Origin: a bacterium
Lineage (GTDB): Bacteria; AUK180
Assembly (NCBI GenBank): GCA_030622125.1
Contig: JAUXGM010000086.1
Location: 1-8,908, forward strand
DNA: 8,908 bases
Reading direction: 5' to 3'
Shown here: in pieces, positions 1-8,908 of the stretch
How positions within the stretch are numbered: position 1 is the stretch's first letter
How the letters are laid out: the number at the start of each line of letters is the position of its first letter
Position numbers and translations under genes: made by a program
The notes under the pieces: generated by a model
What the model was told of the DNA's origin: nothing
The model's input: the letters and a program-made list of their open reading frames with translations, nothing else
Database searches by the model: none

Positions 1-1304
1 AAAATAATTATAAGAATAAAAACGATTAAAATAATTTTTTGATATTTTTTTCTTATTGTAAAGAAAAGAAAAACAATTAGTAAGAACGGCAGTGAAAGAA
101 GCGTTCTTTGAACCCCAAAAAGCGGTATAAGAATAATACTTGTAGAAAGAGCTCCAAGTATCGAACCGAAACTATTTATCCCATATAAAATTCCGGAAAC
201 GGTCCCTTCATCTCTTTCTCTTGATGCAAAATAAATTATCATAGGAAAGGTCATACCGAATATAATTGCAGGAATGATCATTATCAAAAAAACGATGAAA
301 AGTTCCATAAGGAAGAATTGGTTTATATCAAGATTTAATCCGACCTTAACCTTTAAGATAATGATTTGCAGATATTGGAAAAAAAAGATAAAAAGAATGA
401 AATAAATTACCAAAATAAAAAGCAACTTTTCAAGTGCATACTTTTTTTCATATAATTTAGGGACAATGGATGAACCGATGAAAATGCCGATCAGTATTGT
501 AAAAAGAATTATTGCAAAAGAATAACCGGTTGAACCGAAAACAGGCGAATAAACCCTATTCATCGCAACCTCGAAGACAAAGGTGACAAATCCGGTAAGA
601 AAGATCAATATTTTATATTTCTTTAAGATCGGTTGCCTATTTTCTTTTATAGAAATTTTCTCGGTTGTTTTTTGTTTCTTTTTGCGTCTACCGGTGAGAT
701 TTGAAATAAAGACAACTATTAGCCCTGTCAAAATTGAACAAGATGCGGAAAGAAAAAGTGTTGATCTCAATCCTAAATAACGAATGAAGATAAAGGCGGT
801 AAGCAAAGACCCCACGGCTCCACCTAATGTATTGAACCCGTAAAGCAGTGAAATGCCTTTTTTATCACCAAAATTATTTTTCCAACTTTCTACAAGAAAA
901 GGATAGGTTGTTCCCATCAAAAAGGTTGGAATAAAGAGAAGTAAAAATGTAACCAAAAATTTTATTCCAAGAAATATTGTACTATTTTTGAATGAAAGAG
1001 TATAAAGAAAAAAGATATTATTTTTTAGAAGCAGATAAAGCGGATAGAAAAGAATGACACTTATTCCGAGAAGGATCAGTACAATTCCATAAAATTTATA
1101 ACAATTTTTTGTTTTTTCTATATTTTTCCCCGCCCAAAAGGACCCCAATGAAATACCAAGCATAAATGCCGAAATAACAATAGATACGGAATAGATAGTT
1201 GAACCGAGAACGGGATAGAAAAATCTGCTCCATATAACCTGATAAATAAGTCCAAGCATTCCCGAGATTGTAAATGGCAGTATATAATGTAACTTGCTCT
1301 TCAT
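1..1304 (-). CDS. Fused MFS/spermidine-synthase-type membrane protein, N-terminal part (3' end outside window)
   Basis: An uninterrupted reading frame runs from ATG at 1304-1302 to the left edge with no stop (at least 434 codons), so it is partial. The protein is a string of hydrophobic segments in two homologous halves. The first half has GLIYQVIWSRFFYPVLGST (residues ~18-36), LMGTTYP and a GFNTLGGAVGSLL block. The second half, from ~residue 238, repeats this as FVFEVAMNRVYSPVFGST, IFGMTFP and GINSFGSILGAL. The pattern [YE]QVxWxR-x-PVxGSTxYS plus GxxxGS/A is typical of the membrane domain of proteins annotated as fused MFS/spermidine synthase, where an integral-membrane region precedes a SAM-dependent aminopropyltransferase-like domain. 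That C-terminal domain, if present, lies beyond the window, so neither enzymatic activity nor substrate can be claimed. The start is supported by an AAGGAA Shine-Dalgarno and a TAATG overlap with the kinase gene, indicating translational coupling. A plain MFS permease is the alternative. Confidence 0.78.
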   Translation of the reverse strand, partial: MKSKLHYILPFTISGMLGLIYQVIWSRFFYPVLGSTIYSVSIVISAFMLGISLGSFWAGKNIEKTKNCYKFYGIVLILLGISVILFYPLYLLLKNNIFFLYTLSFKNSTIFLGIKFLVTFLLLFIPTFLMGTTYPFLVESWKNNFGDKKGISLLYGFNTLGGAVGSLLTAFIFIRYLGLRSTLFLSASCSILTGLIVVFISNLTGRRKKKQKTTEKISIKENRQPILKKYKILIFLTGFVTFVFEVAMNRVYSPVFGSTGYSFAIILFTILIGIFIGSSIVPKLYEKKYALEKLLFILVIYFILFIFFFQYLQIIILKVKVGLNLDINQFFLMELFIVFLIMIIPAIIFGMTFPMIIYFASRERDEGTVSGILYGINSFGSILGALSTSIILIPLFGVQRTLLSLPFLLIVFLFFTIRKKYQKIILIVFILIII

Positions 1305-3496
1305 TATTCCTTAAACAGTAACTGTTTATTTATATTAAGTGTTTTGCCTGATTCTACTATTATTGTTTCCTTATAGGATTTGCATTTTGGGTTTTTTAAT
1401 ACTAATATGTGCTTACCTATCTGAATTTTTTGTTTTTTCATTGGTGTTATTCCTATTTTTTGCCCATCAAGATAGGCATTTGCCCATGGTTTGCAAACTA
1501 TTTTTAGGTAACCGAATTTACTCTTCAAGGTTATTGGGAATTTATTTTCACCTTCGCTTACCCTTATTTCTTCTGTGATGTCTTGAAAGCCATCACTTCT
1601 TACCTTTAGTTTGTGACTACCAACGATTAATCTTTGTGGTTTTATCGGTGTAAATCCTATCTTTTTCCCATCAATATAAACGGTAGCAAATCCGCCTTTT
1701 GTAGGGAAATAACAGGTTGCATATTTGATCACCTTTTTTGAAAGTTCAAGGAACAATTTATTTTTGGCGTCTGAGAATGTAATCCGTTTTTCCAGTGTAT
1801 TATATCCCTTTAAAATTAGTTTTATATTATGATCACCAAATTTAAGTTTAATAATGGCAGGGGTTTTTCCGGCATTATTATTATCGATATAAATCGTAGC
1901 ATTGGGAGGATTACTTTCTATAGTAAAAATATCTTCTATTTTTCTCAAAACTATTTTATAACTCTTTAAACCTCCTTCAAAGACCTGAATATTTTTTTCA
2001 TAAGTTGAAAACCCATCTTTTTTAGCAAGAATTTTGTGATTCCCGATTGGAATCTTAACTTTTTTACCATCTACTTTTTTGCCATCGATAAATATAGGAA
2101 CATTCTTTGGAGAAATGTCAAAAGTTGCTAATTGGTAATTCCATCTAACAAGATCATAAGAAAGTGTTTTTTTCTCACCTTTTTCTATTTCAATGCTAAT
2201 ATTTTTATCTTCATAAAGTTCTTTTGAGATCGCCAAACTATGTGTTCCTGGTTTTACATTGATAGAAATAGGGGTTACCTTTTCTAATTTACTCTCGTCA
2301 AGGACAACGATAGCACCACTCGGGTTGGAATCAATAGAAAGGGTTGTGGTTATTCTGAAAACAGTGAAATAAAGTATTAAAGCTACTGCTGCTAATGCGA
2401 TCAAAACAATTGGAAAAGGAGATATCTTACCTTTTGAAAGTTCGGCATTGATCTTATCAATACCCCCCATTGCTTCAGCATTTTCAGTATCCCATAAAAG
2501 AACATTTTTGAAATGAGTGAGTGCATAGGAATATCCTTCCCGTCCTTCTTTAAATTTTTCCTTTCCTGCTTTAAGTCCTTTTTCTATTTGACTTTTCTTA
2601 TATTCAATAAAAAAATCGGATGGGGATATTAAATATTTTTTTAACAGTTGTTCGGACGGTCTAATGCCATATTTTGCAAAATATTCTTCAATATCAGAGA
2701 TTATATCATTACAATTTTTGTATCTTTTTCCCTTATCCTTTTCAACCATTTTGGTGTATATTTTTATGATATCTTTGTCCAAAGATGGTTCTAATTGAGG
2801 AATTGGCAATGGCTTGTCCGACAGTATCTTTGATATTATTGACATATAGTTCTTTTCATTCGGATAGGGTTTTTTTCCTGTTAATAATTCATAAAACATG
2901 ATCCCTGTAGAAAAAATATCACTTTGATTGTCTGCTGTTTCTCCTCTTGCCTGTTCTGGAGACATATAGGCAGGTGTTCCCATAAGAGTGCCTGTCATCG
3001 TTAGATTACCCGCATCTTCCGAATGTGCAAGTCCAAAATCGACGAGTTTTACCTCTCCATTTCTGGAAACAAGTATATTTCCCGGTTTGATATCTCTGTG
3101 AATGATTCCCTTATCATGTGCGTATCCCAATCCTTTTAAGATATAGTAAATAAACATCATTGCCAATTGAGCAGGCATCTTTTGTTCGATCTTGTTAATA
3201 ACTATTTTTAGATCGATACCTTTGACAAATTCCATAATTATATAGATTGTTTTTTTATCTTCAATGAATTCGTATATGCGTACAATATTTGGATGTTCAA
3301 GCTTTGATAAGGTTAATGCTTCCCTTTTAAATCTTTCAATGAATGTAGAATCATCATATAAAAAAGAATGGAGTTCTTTTATTGCAACGGTTCTATTTAG
3401 TGATTCCTGTGTCCCCTGGTAGAGTGTTGCCATTCCACCCTTGCCCACTTTTTTCTTAATAATGTAACCGACGATTTTCTTTTCTATATCACTCAT
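1304..3496 (-). CDS. Transmembrane Ser/Thr protein kinase with five PEGA repeats
   Basis: Hanks-type kinase of 730 residues. The catalytic domain spans ~10-272: glycine loop GKGGMATLY (18-26), ATP-binding Lys40 in VAIK, likely helix-C Glu59, catalytic loop HRDIKPGN (133-140, Asp135), DFG at 153-155, a Thr-rich activation loop (166, 168, 170), GTPAYMSPEQ (173-182) and Asp193. All catalytic residues are present, so it should be active. Residues ~310-350 look like a single TPR-like helix pair. One membrane helix lies at ~360-380. The rest, outside the membrane, is five ~65-residue PEGA-type units at ~384-449, 455-518, 522-586, 592-657 and 661-727, each with a [VA]x[IL]DG-type turn and a GxHxL strand; the first three carry SNPSG/ISPKN/SNPPN-like starts. 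PEGA domains are thought to bind surface polymers or proteins; no ligand is visible here. The gene overlaps the pyruvyl transferase gene by 8 bases (ATGAGTGA) and has no clear Shine-Dalgarno of its own, so it is probably coupled. Targets are unknown. Confidence 0.95.
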   Translation of the reverse strand: MSDIEKKIVGYIIKKKVGKGGMATLYQGTQESLNRTVAIKELHSFLYDDSTFIERFKREALTLSKLEHPNIVRIYEFIEDKKTIYIIMEFVKGIDLKIVINKIEQKMPAQLAMMFIYYILKGLGYAHDKGIIHRDIKPGNILVSRNGEVKLVDFGLAHSEDAGNLTMTGTLMGTPAYMSPEQARGETADNQSDIFSTGIMFYELLTGKKPYPNEKNYMSIISKILSDKPLPIPQLEPSLDKDIIKIYTKMVEKDKGKRYKNCNDIISDIEEYFAKYGIRPSEQLLKKYLISPSDFFIEYKKSQIEKGLKAGKEKFKEGREGYSYALTHFKNVLLWDTENAEAMGGIDKINAELSKGKISPFPIVLIALAAVALILYFTVFRITTTLSIDSNPSGAIVVLDESKLEKVTPISINVKPGTHSLAISKELYEDKNISIEIEKGEKKTLSYDLVRWNYQLATFDISPKNVPIFIDGKKVDGKKVKIPIGNHKILAKKDGFSTYEKNIQVFEGGLKSYKIVLRKIEDIFTIESNPPNATIYIDNNNAGKTPAIIKLKFGDHNIKLILKGYNTLEKRITFSDAKNKLFLELSKKVIKYATCYFPTKGGFATVYIDGKKIGFTPIKPQRLIVGSHKLKVRSDGFQDITEEIRVSEGENKFPITLKSKFGYLKIVCKPWANAYLDGQKIGITPMKKQKIQIGKHILVLKNPKCKSYKETIIVESGKTLNINKQLLFKE
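1307..1312 (-). promoter_or_regulatory. Ribosome binding site for the MFS/spermidine-synthase-type gene
   Basis: AAGGAA on the minus strand, inside the last two sense codons of the kinase gene and two bases before the ATG at 1304. It supports that ATG as the real start and coupling through the TAATG stop-start overlap. Confidence 0.6.
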
Positions 3497-4469
3497 TTTT
3501 TATTATATCAAATTTCATATATTTTTTCAATATTTTATTAAATTTTAAATGGGTTATTTCTTTTGTCCTTATTATGGGAAAATTTTTCATACCATCAAGG
3601 GCATACTCACATTTTTTATCATAAGCGATATTAATGCCCTTCTTGTCCAGTATTTGAGCCATCATATTGAAATGTAATCGCATTCCTATTGTAACATCAC
3701 ATTTTGAAATGGGATAAAATGCATTTTCAGGATTCGTATTTACAATAAATGTATTATCGTTAAGATAAGGGATTAAAAATCGCATCACCTTTTCATCTCC
3801 CGGTGAAAATGGGATCAAAAGAAAATTTATATTATCAATACCTTTAAATTCAGATAATACGATCCCAATTTCTCTAATAATTTTCTTTATATTATGCCAT
3901 TTTCTGAGATTAATACCTATTGTGATTTTTTTTTCATTTACTTCTATCGGAATATCATAATTTCCCCATAATTTATAAAGAAGATCTTTTGTTAGATGAA
4001 GTTTACCGGATCTGACCTTTTTTCTTAAAAGATTATAAGAATATTTATCTCGTACACTTATATAATTACAATGTTTTAAAATGTTGAGTGTTATAAATTT
4101 ATTAAAATAGTTTACAAATGGTCCAACTCCAATATTATGTAACTCTACTTTTACACCAAAAAATTTGCTTGCAAATATTAAAAAAAGATAATAATATAAG
4201 GATCGTGAAGAGGTTATATCCTGAAAGATGCCCCCACCTGGAAATATAAGTTTTTTGCTTTTTAAAAGACGATAAATAAAGGTAACAAGATCGTATTTAT
4301 ACATTGTTTTTACATTATATTTTTTTCTATGATACCATGGGTTGGCGGATATGACAATAATAACTTCTTTTTTGGCTTTTATTTCTTTTATACTACCATC
4401 AAGGATCAGTTCATCGCCTATATTATTATTTCCAAAATAACCTGCGATTATCGTATATATTTTTTTCAT
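3489..4469 (-). CDS. csaB: Polysaccharide pyruvyl transferase, CsaB-like
   Basis: 326 residues, matching the usual family length of roughly 300-370. Recognisable motifs, in order: N-terminal GYFGNNNIGDE (10-20; the family signature G-Y-x-G-x-x-N-x-GDE), FPGGGIFQD (76-84), HNIGVGP (111-117), ISVRD (137-141), TKD (160-162), GINLRKW (185-191), a second-domain IPFSPGDE (219-226) and CDVTIGMRLHF (257-267) followed by IAYDKKCEYAL. CsaB enzymes transfer pyruvate from phosphoenolpyruvate as a ketal onto a sugar of a secondary cell-wall polysaccharide, on the cytoplasmic side, creating the ligand for SLH domains of S-layer proteins. That role is family knowledge; the acceptor polymer here is unknown. 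The start ATG is one base after the TGA of the DUF5693-like gene, with an AAAGG Shine-Dalgarno at 4475-4479. Other members of the pyruvyl-transferase superfamily (WcaK/EpsO-like) are possible, but the DUF5693 neighbour favours the CsaB branch. Confidence 0.88.
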   Translation of the reverse strand: MKKIYTIIAGYFGNNNIGDELILDGSIKEIKAKKEVIIVISANPWYHRKKYNVKTMYKYDLVTFIYRLLKSKKLIFPGGGIFQDITSSRSLYYYLFLIFASKFFGVKVELHNIGVGPFVNYFNKFITLNILKHCNYISVRDKYSYNLLRKKVRSGKLHLTKDLLYKLWGNYDIPIEVNEKKITIGINLRKWHNIKKIIREIGIVLSEFKGIDNINFLLIPFSPGDEKVMRFLIPYLNDNTFIVNTNPENAFYPISKCDVTIGMRLHFNMMAQILDKKGINIAYDKKCEYALDGMKNFPIIRTKEITHLKFNKILKKYMKFDIIKNE

Positions 4470-4470
4470 T

Positions 4471-5865
4471 TCAACCTTTACTTACCAATTTATCTATTCC
4501 AATTATTATTATACCGATTATTGAACCGAAAATAACGCCCCAGATTGTGGTTAACAATGATATGTAAATAGGATGAGAAAAATGAAGGTAGGTATTAATT
4601 ATGGATATTTGTCCGACCATTCCAAAAGGTATTAAGATAACCGCTCTTCTATTTCCTTTTTTAAGTAAATAGATCCCGTAAAGTAAAATCGGATGACCGA
4701 ATAAAAATTCTTTAAATCTTGGTCTGACAAATAGGTTGATCTCAAAAAATTCCCGAATATTTTCTTCTACATTCCAATGAATTATACGCCAATTGGTACT
4801 TTTTAAAAGTATAAATATTAAAGTGAATATAAATAAAAAAACGATTAACCCGTTCATTTTTTTTATATTGATCTTTTCAGATGCGATATAAATAAATGTT
4901 TGGATAAAGATAGCGATCAACGGAGCTATCAGAACGATCTTTATACCTCTAAATCTATAGATGTAAAATTGAAATACAAGGCTTGAATGAATAAAATAGA
5001 TTAGTATTCCGAGTAATAGGGAAGAAAGTGCTACAATATAGAAGCTATTGCATCTGGGTTTTCGGCTCGATTGCGTACCTGGCTCCAAAATTAAATAACC
5101 AATTACAAAAAAATAGATTATTATGATAATGGTTGCTACAAGATTTATATAAAAATGCTCAAAATTTGCTATGCTTGATACTATATAAAGAAATATTGTT
5201 CCAATAAATGGATAAATAAATTTTCTTTTCCCTATTATAAAATTTAAAAGAAAAATAATGTCAAATAAAAGTAGAAGGAATAATAGTTTTTTTAGAAATC
5301 TGCTTGAAAACCAGTTCTCTGTATTTAAAGAATTAGATATCTTATAACCTTTACATATCGGAGCCAATTTGGTCTTGATATATTCATTATTTTTCGGCAG
5401 GAGAATTATTTTAATCCCTCTTTCTATGATCGCCCTACGATACCTTAATAGTTTTTTTCTTTCACTGAGCTTTACAGCCTCATCATCCGGTATAAGATGA
5501 CCTTTTAGCAAAGACAGATCACTGTAATACACAGGCAGTTCACCCGGATCCGGAGATCTTATCCGTTCAAGAAGAATTACAGGCAATTTGTAGAGTTTTA
5601 ATAATTCATATACCTTTCTCGGATTTGCCATTATCTCATCGGGAAAGATATAGATACCGGATATCCCCTTTGTGTTCCTTTTTTTTAGGATTCCCCCAAA
5701 AGAAATTATTTTTTTGTTGCTTTCTACAATTTCATAAGTAAAATTATTTTCTTTAACGGCAATGGTAAAAGTCCTGTTTTTGAACTCACTTTTTATTCGT
5801 AAACCGAGACAGAGCAAAAGAGGCAGAACATTAATAATAATGAGTATTTTAATAATTCTCTTCAA
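4471..5865 (-). CDS. DUF5693-like polytopic membrane protein
   Basis: 464 residues. An N-terminal membrane anchor (~4-22) is followed by an extracytoplasmic domain (~25-185) containing RYRRAIIERGIKIILLP (141-157), then about eight hydrophobic segments to the C-terminus. Late motifs are FVRPRFKEFLFGHPILLYG (379-397) and GQISIINTYLHFSHP (418-432). From memory these match the DUF5693 family pattern (RYxRAxxER..., RPRTKEFLIGxP, SIxNTFxHxHTP). Firmicute members are, as I recall, longer (~600+ residues), so this is a compact version. Biochemical function is unknown; DUF5693 genes are typically next to csaB, as here, suggesting a role with the pyruvylated wall polymer or S-layer. The start is TTG at 5865, chosen because a GGGCGGTG Shine-Dalgarno precedes it by four bases, no in-frame ATG lies close upstream, and a membrane anchor follows directly. 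It overlaps the peptidase gene by 17 bases. Confidence 0.78.
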   Translation of the reverse strand: MKRIIKILIIINVLPLLLCLGLRIKSEFKNRTFTIAVKENNFTYEIVESNKKIISFGGILKKRNTKGISGIYIFPDEIMANPRKVYELLKLYKLPVILLERIRSPDPGELPVYYSDLSLLKGHLIPDDEAVKLSERKKLLRYRRAIIERGIKIILLPKNNEYIKTKLAPICKGYKISNSLNTENWFSSRFLKKLLFLLLLFDIIFLLNFIIGKRKFIYPFIGTIFLYIVSSIANFEHFYINLVATIIIIIYFFVIGYLILEPGTQSSRKPRCNSFYIVALSSLLLGILIYFIHSSLVFQFYIYRFRGIKIVLIAPLIAIFIQTFIYIASEKINIKKMNGLIVFLFIFTLIFILLKSTNWRIIHWNVEENIREFFEINLFVRPRFKEFLFGHPILLYGIYLLKKGNRRAVILIPFGMVGQISIINTYLHFSHPIYISLLTTIWGVIFGSIIGIIIIGIDKLVSKG

Positions 5866-6727
5866 TTTGCACCGCCCTTTTTTCCCTTATTCTCTTGATC
5901 AAAAAGGCAATATATCCAATTATAAGCAGAAAAGCTGCAAAAATCATAAAAAACCATGGCGTAAAAATGGTAAGGATATTATATTTTTTCTTTAAGCCTT
6001 TTTTAAATTCTTGAAACACCGAAAAATAATCCTTTTTAAATGCAATATTGAAATTTTTTTCACTATTTTGTGAATATCTAAATAATTTTGCAAATTTTAT
6101 TAGTTTAAGAGTTCCATATTTCTCTGCGATATAGCGCATGAAATCATAGCTATATGGATAAAAAAAACTACCATTCTTATAAAATTTTTTGTATGTTAAT
6201 GGTAAAAAATCAGGTGTGTTATTAAATAATACACCAATTACATAATTAAAACTCGACGGGTATTGTCCGGAAAGGTATTGAGCAAGTCCCTCATTTAACC
6301 AAACGGGAATATTATTACCGTCCGTTGCATTATAAATAATAATATGAATTACCTCATGACAGATAAGGTTATCTAAATTATTGATAGGAAAATCATTGAC
6401 TTTTAACGGGATCAATACATAGAGCGTATTTTCTTTTGGTACCGCAAAACCGCTTACAAATTCTCTGTTCATACCCGAAATATCGTCTTTAATTTTATCT
6501 CTTTCAATAAATATTATTTGAATTTTTATATTGGTCTCTATATTGAACATCTTTTCATACTTAAATATAAAATCATTCCATCTGAATATTTCGTTATTAG
6601 TAATGTGAACACTTTTTGGTACGGTTATTTCAATATTATCAAGGGATATTATCCTGGCGGAAAGAATTGTCGTTATGAAAAAAAATAAGATCAGAGGAAT
6701 CTTTTTTCGCATATCGTATTTTAACAT
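5849..6727 (-). CDS. Exported, membrane-anchored zinc metallopeptidase (peptidase MA/gluzincin type)
   Basis: 292 residues. A signal peptide or N-terminal anchor covers ~7-23 (basic MRKK then a hydrophobic core). The zinc site is HEVIH (124-128) with the third ligand in WLNEGLAQYL (Glu146), i.e. the gluzincin HExxH...NEG arrangement of peptidase MA-like proteins. Downstream, YSYDFMRYIAEKYG (192-205) and FQEFKKGLKKKY (238-249) match the helical tail usual in that family. A single membrane helix at ~254-277 precedes a short basic cytoplasmic tail, so the catalytic domain should face outside the cytoplasm. Substrate unknown; the operon context points to a cell-surface protein. First gene of the operon. 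ATG at 6727 is used; ATG at 6712 (residue 6, giving MRKKIPL) is equally plausible, since neither has a visible Shine-Dalgarno and the second makes a tidier signal peptide. Confidence 0.85.
   Translation of the reverse strand: MLKYDMRKKIPLILFFFITTILSARIISLDNIEITVPKSVHITNNEIFRWNDFIFKYEKMFNIETNIKIQIIFIERDKIKDDISGMNREFVSGFAVPKENTLYVLIPLKVNDFPINNLDNLICHEVIHIIIYNATDGNNIPVWLNEGLAQYLSGQYPSSFNYVIGVLFNNTPDFLPLTYKKFYKNGSFFYPYSYDFMRYIAEKYGTLKLIKFAKLFRYSQNSEKNFNIAFKKDYFSVFQEFKKGLKKKYNILTIFTPWFFMIFAAFLLIIGYIAFLIKRIREKRAVQIEENY
5870..5877 (-). promoter_or_regulatory. Ribosome binding site deciding the TTG start of the DUF5693-like gene
   Basis: GGGCGGTG on the minus strand, four bases before TTG at 5865-5863 and inside the end of the peptidase gene. 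It is the best Shine-Dalgarno in the window apart from AAGGAA at 1307-1312 and supports a non-ATG start with coupling to the upstream gene. Confidence 0.55.
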
Positions 6728-6741
6728 AAAAATGATTTTTA

Positions 6742-6797
6742 GTAAATAGTAAATGGTAAATAGTTGCGAGTTCCGAGTTCCGAGTTATGAGTTATTA
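6742..6797 (-). repeat. Array of eight degenerate tandem heptamers (array 1)
   Basis: Read on the plus strand, the 56 bases divide exactly into eight 7-base words, each beginning GT: three of GTAAAT[AG] type, then GTTGCGA, two GTTCCGA, GTTATGA and GTTATTA. On the minus strand this is a ...AC-ending heptamer such as TCGGAAC or TCATAAC. The ends of each word are fixed while the centre varies. It ends 14 bases before the ATG of the peptidase gene, inside the presumed operon leader. Confidence 0.75.
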
Positions 6798-6832
6798 ATT
6801 TATTTGGCTCTAACCTGAATCAAGTGGGTAAA
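6798..6832 (-). repeat. Inverted motif, left copy (TTTACCCAC-type)
   Basis: On the minus strand this 35-base motif starts TTTACCCACTTGATTC and directly abuts array 1. It matches the plus-strand motif at 7145-7179 at about 25 of 35 positions by hand count, best in the first 16 bases. Origin unknown. Confidence 0.5.
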
Positions 6833-6877
6833 AATTTGTAAAAAAAATAAATATCATTTAGAATCCTATATTAACAA

Positions 6878-6938
6878 TGTCATTGTGAACCTTTTGAGAT
6901 TGCCACGCTTTCAATTGCATTGAAGACTCGCAATGACA
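6878..6938. repeat. Imperfect palindromic intergenic repeat remnant
   Basis: The left end TGTCATTGTGA (6878-6888) pairs with the right end TCGCAATGACA (6928-6938) at 10 of 11 positions. Between them GATTGCCACGC (6898-6908) matches, from memory, the core of dispersed TGTCATTGCGA...GATTGCC repeats seen in many bacterial genomes. It probably is a decayed copy of a hairpin-forming interspersed repeat. Confidence 0.6.
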
Positions 6939-7020
6939 GATAATGTACGCTCCGCTCCTTGCATTCCAATTTTCAAGTAAGCAAATAAATTCTTCACTTC
7001 TCACTTGCAGCACAGTTGCC

Positions 7021-7050
7021 TGTCATTCTGAACCTTTAGGTGAAAAATCC
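7021..7050. repeat. Second interspersed-repeat remnant (TGTCATTCTGAACC type)
   Basis: TGTCATTCTGAACCTTT (7021-7037) matches 6878-6894 at 16 of 17 positions and is followed by GGTGAAAAATCC, resembling the common dispersed TGTCATTCTGA...GAATC repeat. The right-hand half of the palindrome is not visible, so this is a fragment. Confidence 0.5.
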
Positions 7051-7079
7051 AGCATTTTTTCTCTTTTCATTGTATTTTC

Positions 7080-7135
7080 CTCCAACATCAAACTCCAAAC
7101 CCTAAACTTCAAACTCCAAACCTCAAACCATAAAC
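7080..7135 (+). repeat. Array of eight degenerate tandem heptamers (array 2)
   Basis: The 56 bases divide into eight 7-base words all ending AAC on the plus strand: CTCCAAC, ATCAAAC, TCCAAAC, CCTAAAC, TTCAAAC, TCCAAAC, CTCAAAC and CATAAAC in order. Seven of the eight end AAAC and only the first three or four bases vary. Same unit length, same unit number and same ending as array 1, but on the opposite strand. Confidence 0.75.
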
Positions 7136-7144
7136 ATTCTATAA

Positions 7145-7179
7145 TTTACCCACATGAATCGAGCTTGAACCAAACTTAT
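7145..7179 (+). repeat. Inverted motif, right copy (TTTACCCAC-type)
   Basis: Starts TTTACCCACATGAATC on the plus strand, nine bases after array 2. It is the inverted partner of 6798-6832. Its right end covers the stop codon of the FGE-like remnant (7176-7178). Confidence 0.5.
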
Positions 7180-7271
7180 TTTTTATCCCTTGGAATTTCA
7201 ATGTCTTTTACGCATCTGAAACCGACACAGGAATATGTATTTTGCCATTCTTCAGGATATTTCCAAAACCG
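7176..7271 (-). pseudogene. C-terminal remnant of a formylglycine-generating-enzyme-like (SUMF1/FGE-sulfatase) gene
   Basis: The minus strand reads through 31 codons ending at TAA (7178-7176): RFWKYPEEWQ, then NTYSCVGFRCVKDIEIPRD, then KK. GFRCVKD close to a stop is the usual C-terminal signature of FGE/SUMF1-type domains, which fold as C-type-lectin-like units and either make formylglycine in sulfatases or serve other roles. An in-frame TAG lies immediately upstream (7274-7272) with another at 7280-7278, and no start or further domain sequence is recognisable before them, so this is a dead fragment. It sits between the lipoprotein gene and the repeats, implying that the body of the gene was deleted. 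Too short for certainty; the motif is the only support. Confidence 0.55.
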
Positions 7272-7322
7272 CTAACCCTATTTAGTATTTCAGAGCCTTA
7301 TAAAGAATAAAACAAGAATATT

Positions 7323-8908
7323 TCAATTCTTTATTATCATTTCAATTTTTTCAGAAAATTGCGTAATATCATTACCAAAATTCCATAGTATATTTCCATT
7401 GTTATCTATCAATAGAACTATTGTTTCCGGATACCAATTAGAATAAGGACCTTGATAAAATGGAAGCATCCTTTGTGGTTCAATATTAAATATCGTTTTG
7501 CCATCATCATATTGATAAAAAATAGCAGAATTTTCCAGTTCATCTTTATATGGATGATTAACAATATAATAAAAATCAAGTTCCTTATTTATATCACAGA
7601 ATTCTTGCACTTTTTCTTTAATTTTCGAAAAAAAACAATCACACATTGGACGAAATAGAATCAATAAATGATATTTTTTTTCTTTATTAAAGTAATTTAT
7701 AAGATTATGTTCCTTTTTATCTAATCCTTTAACTTTAAAATCTTTAATAGAATCAAGTGATTCAACTTTTTTATATTCTTCTTTATATATAAAAAAATTA
7801 GGTTTTTTATAAGATACAGGATTTTCTTTATCCTTAATCACAAATACTCTTTTTTTTATTTCTTCTTCTTTTATATCCTTTCTCTTTTTTCCAAATGCCA
7901 CTTCATATTTTTCTATAACAAATTCTTTCTTGTTTGAAGGATTATACAAATATATATAATTTTCATCTGCATACAAAAAAGATTTGTTATCAATCTTATA
8001 AGAACCAATATATCTTTGCTTTCGAATTGAATAGAAATCCAAATATACTGGTGCAGATACCCTTCGTGTAACAACAAAATAATTTTTATTAAATACACAT
8101 GGAAAACCACTGAAAGACCATTTTTCAAGCCACACTCCTCTATTTTGACCTTCTAAGTAAGGAGGAATATCTAAATAAGAAATGTAATGAGATGGAATTT
8201 TATCATATTTATGAACTAATTTACCATCCATTGAGTATTCATAAATATTAGGTTCAAAAGGTTTCACAATAAGAATATGACCATTGGAAGTAACATCGCA
8301 AAGTAAAGCACTCATATTCTTCCCGCGAATAGTTTTATTCTTTATATTGTCACTATCCTCGCAGGTTAATCCAATAAGATTTTTTATTTTCCCCGTTTTT
8401 AAATTTAATACCTCTACTTCATTATCTGATTTTATTAGATAATTTTTATATTTTTTACACATCCACATATTTCCGTAAGTATTATTATTTAAAACGGAAG
8501 GAAGCAATATACTCTCTTTTAAATTTCCCTTTTCATTGTATATATTCAACCGTCTAACAACATCACTTATCAATATCTCATTCTTATCTGAAAGTGTTAA
8601 ACTTTCCGGAAAATAAGCGGTTTTTCCAGGTTCAAGTCCAAAATCACATATCTTTTTATATTTCCCTGTTTTTAAATTTATCCAATAATAAGTATAATAA
8701 GATACCATCAATACCAGAAATTTATTTTCTTTTATTATAAAACGAGGCGGTAAAAAATTACTATATACGCCAGGAGTAATTTTCTCTTCAAAATTCGGAA
8801 ATTTTATAATAATCTCGCCACATTTTTTTAATTCAATATTCAAGTCTTTATTATTACAACAAATTAAGGCAGAAACGCCAAAAGTAAACAGGAATAATAA
8901 CTTTATAA
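7323..8908 (-). CDS. Lipoprotein: 6-bladed beta-propeller-like region plus C-terminal redoxin-like domain (5' end outside window)
   Basis: The frame is open to the right edge. Its first visible codons (8906 downward) read IKLLFLFTFGVSALICCNNKD, a hydrophobic signal-peptide core followed by Cys-Cys-Asn-Asn, as in lipoproteins. The start codon is therefore beyond the edge, and the TTG at 8843 is not the start. Residue numbers below count from that TTG codon. The first two thirds are repeated strand-rich blades, including FGLEPGKTAYFPESLTL (68-84), ISDVVRRLNIYNEKGNL (92-108) and IYEYSMDGKLV (200-210), resembling 6-bladed beta-propeller lipoproteins common in Bacteroidota and candidate phyla. From ~365 a thioredoxin-fold-like domain follows: DFKVKGLDKKEHNLINYF, LLILFRPMCDCFFSKIKEK with Cys401-Asp-Cys403 (7635-7643), and WYPETIVLLIDNNGNILW (470-487), whose Pro-then-strand-then-D-x-x-G layout matches TlpA/AhpC-type redoxins. 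The CxC spacing differs from the normal CxxC. Function unknown; perhaps envelope thiol chemistry. It is separated from the operon by the repeat spacer. Confidence 0.72.
   Translation of the reverse strand, partial: IKLLFLFTFGVSALICCNNKDLNIELKKCGEIIIKFPNFEEKITPGVYSNFLPPRFIIKENKFLVLMVSYYTYYWINLKTGKYKKICDFGLEPGKTAYFPESLTLSDKNEILISDVVRRLNIYNEKGNLKESILLPSVLNNNTYGNMWMCKKYKNYLIKSDNEVEVLNLKTGKIKNLIGLTCEDSDNIKNKTIRGKNMSALLCDVTSNGHILIVKPFEPNIYEYSMDGKLVHKYDKIPSHYISYLDIPPYLEGQNRGVWLEKWSFSGFPCVFNKNYFVVTRRVSAPVYLDFYSIRKQRYIGSYKIDNKSFLYADENYIYLYNPSNKKEFVIEKYEVAFGKKRKDIKEEEIKKRVFVIKDKENPVSYKKPNFFIYKEEYKKVESLDSIKDFKVKGLDKKEHNLINYFNKEKKYHLLILFRPMCDCFFSKIKEKVQEFCDINKELDFYYIVNHPYKDELENSAIFYQYDDGKTIFNIEPQRMLPFYQGPYSNWYPETIVLLIDNNGNILWNFGNDITQFSEKIEMIIKN

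Follow-up and report, generated by a model that had tools for sequence, protein, structure and literature searches.

Among long simple sequence repeats (SSRs), those with heptanucleotide units form the most abundant category in most surveyed genomes, according to a report that cites the survey (Mrazek et al. 2007, via PMC4679880). Polymerase-related slippage has been proposed as their cause. In one of the Beggiatoaceae, the heptamer TAACTGA forms intergenic direct repeats, mostly in short sets and mostly just upstream of start codons (PMC4679880). Xanthomonas and Nostoc carry abundant intergenic GGGAATC and GGGGA(C/T)T repeats, which are G-rich and quadruplex-forming and whose length and sequence vary between relatives (PMC4692102). 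In two Haemophilus hmw promoters, arrays of 11-60 7-bp repeats change in unit number, which is attributed to slipped-strand mispairing, and have a reported effect on expression (PMC10127715). Heptamers are also known as binding sites. The omega2 protein of plasmid pSM19035 occupies 7 to 10 contiguous 7-bp parS heptads of one iteron kind, in three defined promoter regions (PMC4498918).

The window considered here, that is, the whole stretch of DNA analysed, is 8,908 nucleotides long and corresponds to contig C149 of a 2.08 Mb bacterial draft genome that is about 96% complete; the sampled contigs have 33% G+C. A first-pass annotation had drawn attention to two heptamer arrays in the window. Both lie in the intergenic region 6728-7322, which is bordered by a Peptidase_MA_2 gene (5849-6727, minus strand) and by an open reading frame (ORF) without a Pfam match (7323-8906, minus strand). 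Array 2 is crossed by a plus-strand ORF of 110 aa (6943-7275), which is probably spurious. An Rfam search of 6600-7400 returned zero matches. Elsewhere in the window (1304-5865) is a set of minus-strand genes: a serine/threonine kinase with four PEGA domains (1304-3496), an adjoining polysaccharide pyruvyl transferase gene (3489-4469) and, beside it, a gene for a DUF5693 protein (4471-5865).

Array 1 had been described as one minus-strand array of eight units. The minus strand does carry AAC five times and then TAC three times at an exact 7-base step, seen on the plus strand as GTT at 6763, 6770, 6777, 6784 and 6791 and GTA at 6742, 6749 and 6756. It reads AACTCAT AACTCGG AACTCGG AACTCGC AACT and then, in phase, ATTTACC ATTTACT ATTTACT. 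Array 1 is in fact two abutting arrays built of unlike words, AACTCNN x5 and ATTTACY x3, and each of the two has separate relatives in other places, so that the "eight units" are five plus three. The second part in minus-strand reading, array 1a (6742..6762, minus strand), comprises the three ATTTACY heptamers (TRF 6740-6764, period 7), and the stretch 6742-6764 is identical at 23/23 bases to contig C169 (L023 3108-3086). Array 1b (6763..6796, minus strand) comprises the five AACTCNN heptamers, whose phase array 1a shares (TRF 6762-6786, period 7). It matches contig C25 over 48 bases, some flank included, and further AACTC copies are found in C57, C58, C65 and C74.

Array 2 (7082..7135, plus strand) consists of eight 7-base units ending in AAC, as had been annotated and as both its sequence and TRF confirm. 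The AAC triplets run at step 7 from 7084 to 7135, and seven of the eight units have the form YAAAC. TRF gives the array an additional 21-base higher-order period, and it contains zero pairs of adjacent identical units. Related arrays occur in contigs C178, C163 and C74.

Both arrays are detected by TRF, and both are real and beyond chance expectation. As a control, dinucleotide-preserving shuffles were made, 300 from the window and 300 from the intergenic region. In either shuffle set, step-7 runs of a non-homopolymer triplet reached 4 at most, against the 8 observed in array 2. In array 1 the best lag-7 window matched at 28/35, with shuffle maxima of 26 (window) and 21 (intergenic); the perfect period-7 stretch in its AACTC part is only 19 bases. 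The arrays had been said to share one grammar. The remark that the unit ends are mostly AAC is correct, but the fixed core differs by sub-array (AACTC, ATTTAC or AAAC), so that the period of 7 is the one rule they have in common. The view that the two are not copies of each other is supported. Their equal size and opposite orientation hold for this pair and are no general property of such arrays in the genome; the equal length and mirrored pairing are a coincidence.

The first-pass annotation considered that no standard feature class explains these arrays. Heptanucleotide SSRs are, however, a described and over-represented bacterial class (PMC4692102 and PMC4679880, each of which cites Mrazek et al. 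2007). Like the prokaryotic long SSRs of that survey, as those two papers describe them, the arrays of this genome are tandem and mostly intergenic and the 7-base unit is over-represented; they differ in having imperfect units, an 8-base class about half as common and many words per genome. Neither array consists throughout of identical adjacent units, as a strict (perfect) SSR would. Head-to-tail 7-base units beyond chance, a genome-wide period-7 excess and enrichment in non-coding DNA are all found. The arrays are imperfect members of the heptanucleotide SSR kind; that they belong to any of the single-word families is excluded. The Beggiatoaceae repeats are likewise intergenic direct heptamers (PMC4679880), but they are built of one exact word, as against at least 21 degenerate words here; that word, TAACTGA, is absent from arrays 1 and 2, and the arrays of this genome follow no rule of lying upstream of start codons. 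The Xanthomonas and Nostoc repeats are similar in being abundant and intergenic (PMC4692102). The present arrays, in contrast, contain little G on one of their strands and do not carry a G tract in each unit, and GGG is found on neither strand of either array except for one CCC in array 2. The hmw repeats share the heptamer array and offer a case of unit number change ascribed to slippage (PMC10127715), but they are long promoter arrays with a reported effect on expression.

The arrays are not isolated. We surveyed a sample of 60 contigs (636 kb), in which 16 of the first 20 contigs besides that of the window had been picked for matching its intergenic region; gene calls were simple ORF calls, so that intergenic and orientation counts are approximate. 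The sample contains 53 period-7 and 31 period-8 arrays, which extrapolates to about 170 and 100 in the whole genome. Period 7 has 29 fixed-triplet arrays of at least five units and period 8 has 14, where a first-order Markov control yields 0 and 1; each of the remaining periods from 4 to 21 has 0-3. A lag self-match scan of the same sample gives 37 arrays of period 7 and 24 of period 8, which are echoed at 14 and 16. When the period spectrum was redone on 40 contigs picked by number, regardless of matches, it showed 31 arrays at period 7, 17 at period 8, 9 at period 9 and 0 at 5 and 6. A looser array caller (285 "arrays") let in chance matches and was therefore not used for this genome. The suggestion of a common generating process with a preferred 7-base step is borne out by these spectra: the preference is real and genome-wide.

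The words vary widely. At least 21 word families are present among the arrays, for example CATTGTC, CTAACCT, CAACTCT, TTCACTA, CATTCTT, TTTCGAC, AACTCNN and NYAAAC. Most period-7 arrays (37 of 53) are intergenic, though called ORFs make up 89% of the sample. Some heptamer arrays lie inside long ORFs (L059 1500-2000 and 7750-8245), where they may encode the tails of proteins. In two places hairpins are apparently inserted within AACCTCT-family heptamer arrays and split them (L064 2050-2100; L031 13220-13300).

A conserved unit number and inverted pairing had both been proposed. Unit counts among the 53 period-7 arrays are mostly four (21 arrays) or five (23), with six in 5 arrays, seven in 2 and eight in 2. 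Neighbouring arrays within 1 kb have the same orientation in 14 cases and opposite orientations in 6. For this genome, these counts and orientations rule out both an eight-unit rule and inverted pairing. In substance this is the random variation that the first-pass annotation had said would refute its proposal; the one deviation from it is a mild same-orientation excess, which runs counter to inverted pairing.

The "fixed end, free centre" of the units had been read as a special rule. The variance-to-mean ratio of non-consensus counts per column is 1.02 over 35 arrays, against 0.96-1.08 when tandem duplication and point mutation are simulated; with one array per word family it is 1.07 against 1.01-1.08. 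Since the variation is no more confined to columns than in this simulation, column constraint was rejected as a sign of selection, and neutral duplication and mutation produce as much of a rule as is seen. Five-unit arrays have limited power, so the comparison excludes strong constraint and not weak. The same statistic bears on templated synthesis, in which a reverse transcriptase or similar enzyme would add 7-base steps with a free centre. A constant step with a variable centre is what such an enzyme might leave, yet the variable columns behave as under mutation and 8-base arrays of other words coexist with the heptamers. A reverse transcriptase, which the first-pass annotation had suggested looking for alongside the arrays, did not appear either: the 96% complete genome gave no RVT_1 match, while the identical search was positive in 3 of 14 control genomes. 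We regard templated synthesis as extremely improbable.

The reading we prefer, to which we give a probability of about 75%, is that the arrays are imperfect, microsatellite-like heptanucleotide tandem repeats that grow and shrink by slippage and are blurred by mutation. Under this reading, short accidental repeats would gain or lose whole units through slipped-strand mispairing in replication or repair, and point mutations would afterwards blur the units. Repeated block duplication would spread some early mutations and not others, and would thus create apparently fixed and free positions. Arrays would persist mainly between genes because they do little harm there, and some would be copied elsewhere within larger dispersed repeats.

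Whole-unit changes can be seen in other genomes. In related viral contigs, which were found by pattern, arrays bounded on either side by matching 40-base flanks have 5, 8 or 10 AACTCTT units. A second viral set carries 9, 14 or 15 TAAACCC units, the 9-unit contig differing slightly in one flank. In viral contigs including L105, L110, L128 and L199, several heptamer arrays end a few bases before an ATG. No close relative carrying the locus itself was found, and the unit changes are those of comparable arrays. Neighbouring units were compared in a test in which interior units were shuffled and end units held, at three lags. Among 83 variable public AACTCNN arrays, a unit resembles the next but one more closely than it does with interior units shuffled (P 0.008), and more clearly so in arrays of at least six units (P 0.0017). 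This likeness is what 14-base duplications would leave. In the present genome the edge-controlled test was not significant (P 0.20, lag 1); a neighbour-unit similarity that at first gave P 0.003 was lost once the end units were held. Several points stand against the slippage account. To this non-significant test, the limited power of the neutral comparison and the absence of observed expansion at this site come two more: plain slippage alone leaves the peak at 7-8 and the near absence at 4-6 unexplained, and array 2 is without adjacent identical units. Loss of mismatch repair was considered as a cause and rejected, a MutS_I domain being present. That slippage generated arrays 1 and 2 specifically is something we infer.

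The position of array 1 raises another question. Counted from the first possible start of the peptidase gene (6727), the combined array ends about 12-15 bases upstream; from the likelier one (6712), the distance is about 28-30 bases. The array could act in the leader of that gene, as part of a set of regulatory or structural arrays in which a protein or RNA reads the core every 7 bases and the free positions are uncontacted spacers. Omega2, which binds 7-10 contiguous 7-bp iterons (PMC4498918), is a precedent for the protein reading a 7-base step that had been proposed, and the start-codon position of most TAACTGA repeats (PMC4679880) and of several viral-contig arrays points the same way. But omega2 reads one iteron kind in defined promoters, and this genome holds its 21 or more words; the arrays do not belong with the parS heptads, which they resemble in having contiguous 7-base units, 7 to 10 in number. 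Nor is there an orientation bias toward flanking genes. Among intergenic period-7 arrays between same-strand genes, the C-rich strand is the gene strand in 4 and the other strand in 6. The gene beyond array 2 has its 3' end toward the array, and the column variation is no more confined than neutral. The nearest homologue of the peptidase in the family is 42% identical, and no array was found around the homologous gene in three family members (L071-L073); the G002 locus ends at a contig edge. A binding function is unlikely on this evidence.

Dispersed repeats form a mosaic in much of the intergenic region: between 6742 and about 7190, most of the sequence has matches elsewhere in the genome. 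Two of these, E1 (6806..6890, plus strand) and E2 (7136..7187, plus strand), are inverted relative to each other, with motifs TTTACCCACTTGATTCAGGTTAGAGCC and TTTACCCACATGAATCGAGCTTGAACC, and look like the left and right ends of one element, about 380 bp long. E1 aligns at 84.5% over 84 bases to C75 1742-1825, and the pair recurs in that contig (L011 1742-2128) at nearly equal spacing (381 and 387 bases). Two solo copies of E2, with the last CAAAC units, are present in C134 and C115. Between the arrays are a palindromic dispersed repeat of the TGTCATTGNGA...TCGCAATGACA type (6879..6939, no strand assigned; 79-87% matches in C115, C173 and C69) and a repeat of the GTCATTCTGA...AATCCAG type (7020..7058, plus strand; 81-88% matches in C25, C74, C3 and C191). 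The former is also labelled as a TCATTGCGAG...GCAATGACA type, and both repeats have several copies in the genome.

This mosaic suggests that the arrays might be parts or targets of small dispersed elements, moved here and not generated here. The C57 and C65 copies of one AACTC array share flanks past the array, and the genome has four Y1 transposase genes. The E1-E2 copy in C75, however, has an unrelated interior with neither array, C58 has the same AACTC array as C57 and C65 but little of the upstream flank, and the loci surrounding the Y1 genes showed no period-7/8 array. E1-E2 resembles a small inverted-end element, one that carries the arrays only partly and leaves them unexplained. Dispersal moves arrays and leaves their period and word variety unexplained. 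We consider mobile cargo an improbable origin for the arrays, and slippage remains the preferred reading.

Similar arrays are widespread. Of 386 genomes, 20 contain four AACTC units with two free bases (AACTC+2N x4); the number is 9 for three free bases and 0 for one. At step 7 the spread of the reversed control word CTCAA is about equal to that of AACTC, and the period matters more than the word. Among the matches listed for AACTCRN x5 in named genomes, with host groups read from record titles, are Bacteroidota, Cyanobacteria, Gammaproteobacteria, Chloroflexota and Planctomycetota, as well as Desulfobacterota, Brachyspira, Fibrobacter, WOR-3, Gottesmanbacteria and others. Two unrelated genomes, G176 (L360-L363, L371) and G093 (L366), carry degenerate octamer arrays as back-to-back inverted pairs, (GAGTTNNN)3-5, a short loop and (AACTCNNN)3-5, some of them beside or possibly inside genes. 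It is conceivable, though doubtful, that arrays of degenerate units stepping by 7 or 8 bases are pan-bacterial and have a dedicated cause, either a replication or repair machine with a 7-8-base step or a factor that keeps the cores, with inverted pairs of the (GAGTTNNN)n-loop-(AACTCNNN)n kind in some unrelated genomes.

The pair of arrays in this window is ordinary by itself. The wider value lies in the genome around it. A sharp 7-8-base period, many words and no conserved size within one genome make it a natural test set for the bacterial preference for 7-base units, and the AACTCNN-form arrays found in many phyla add to that value.
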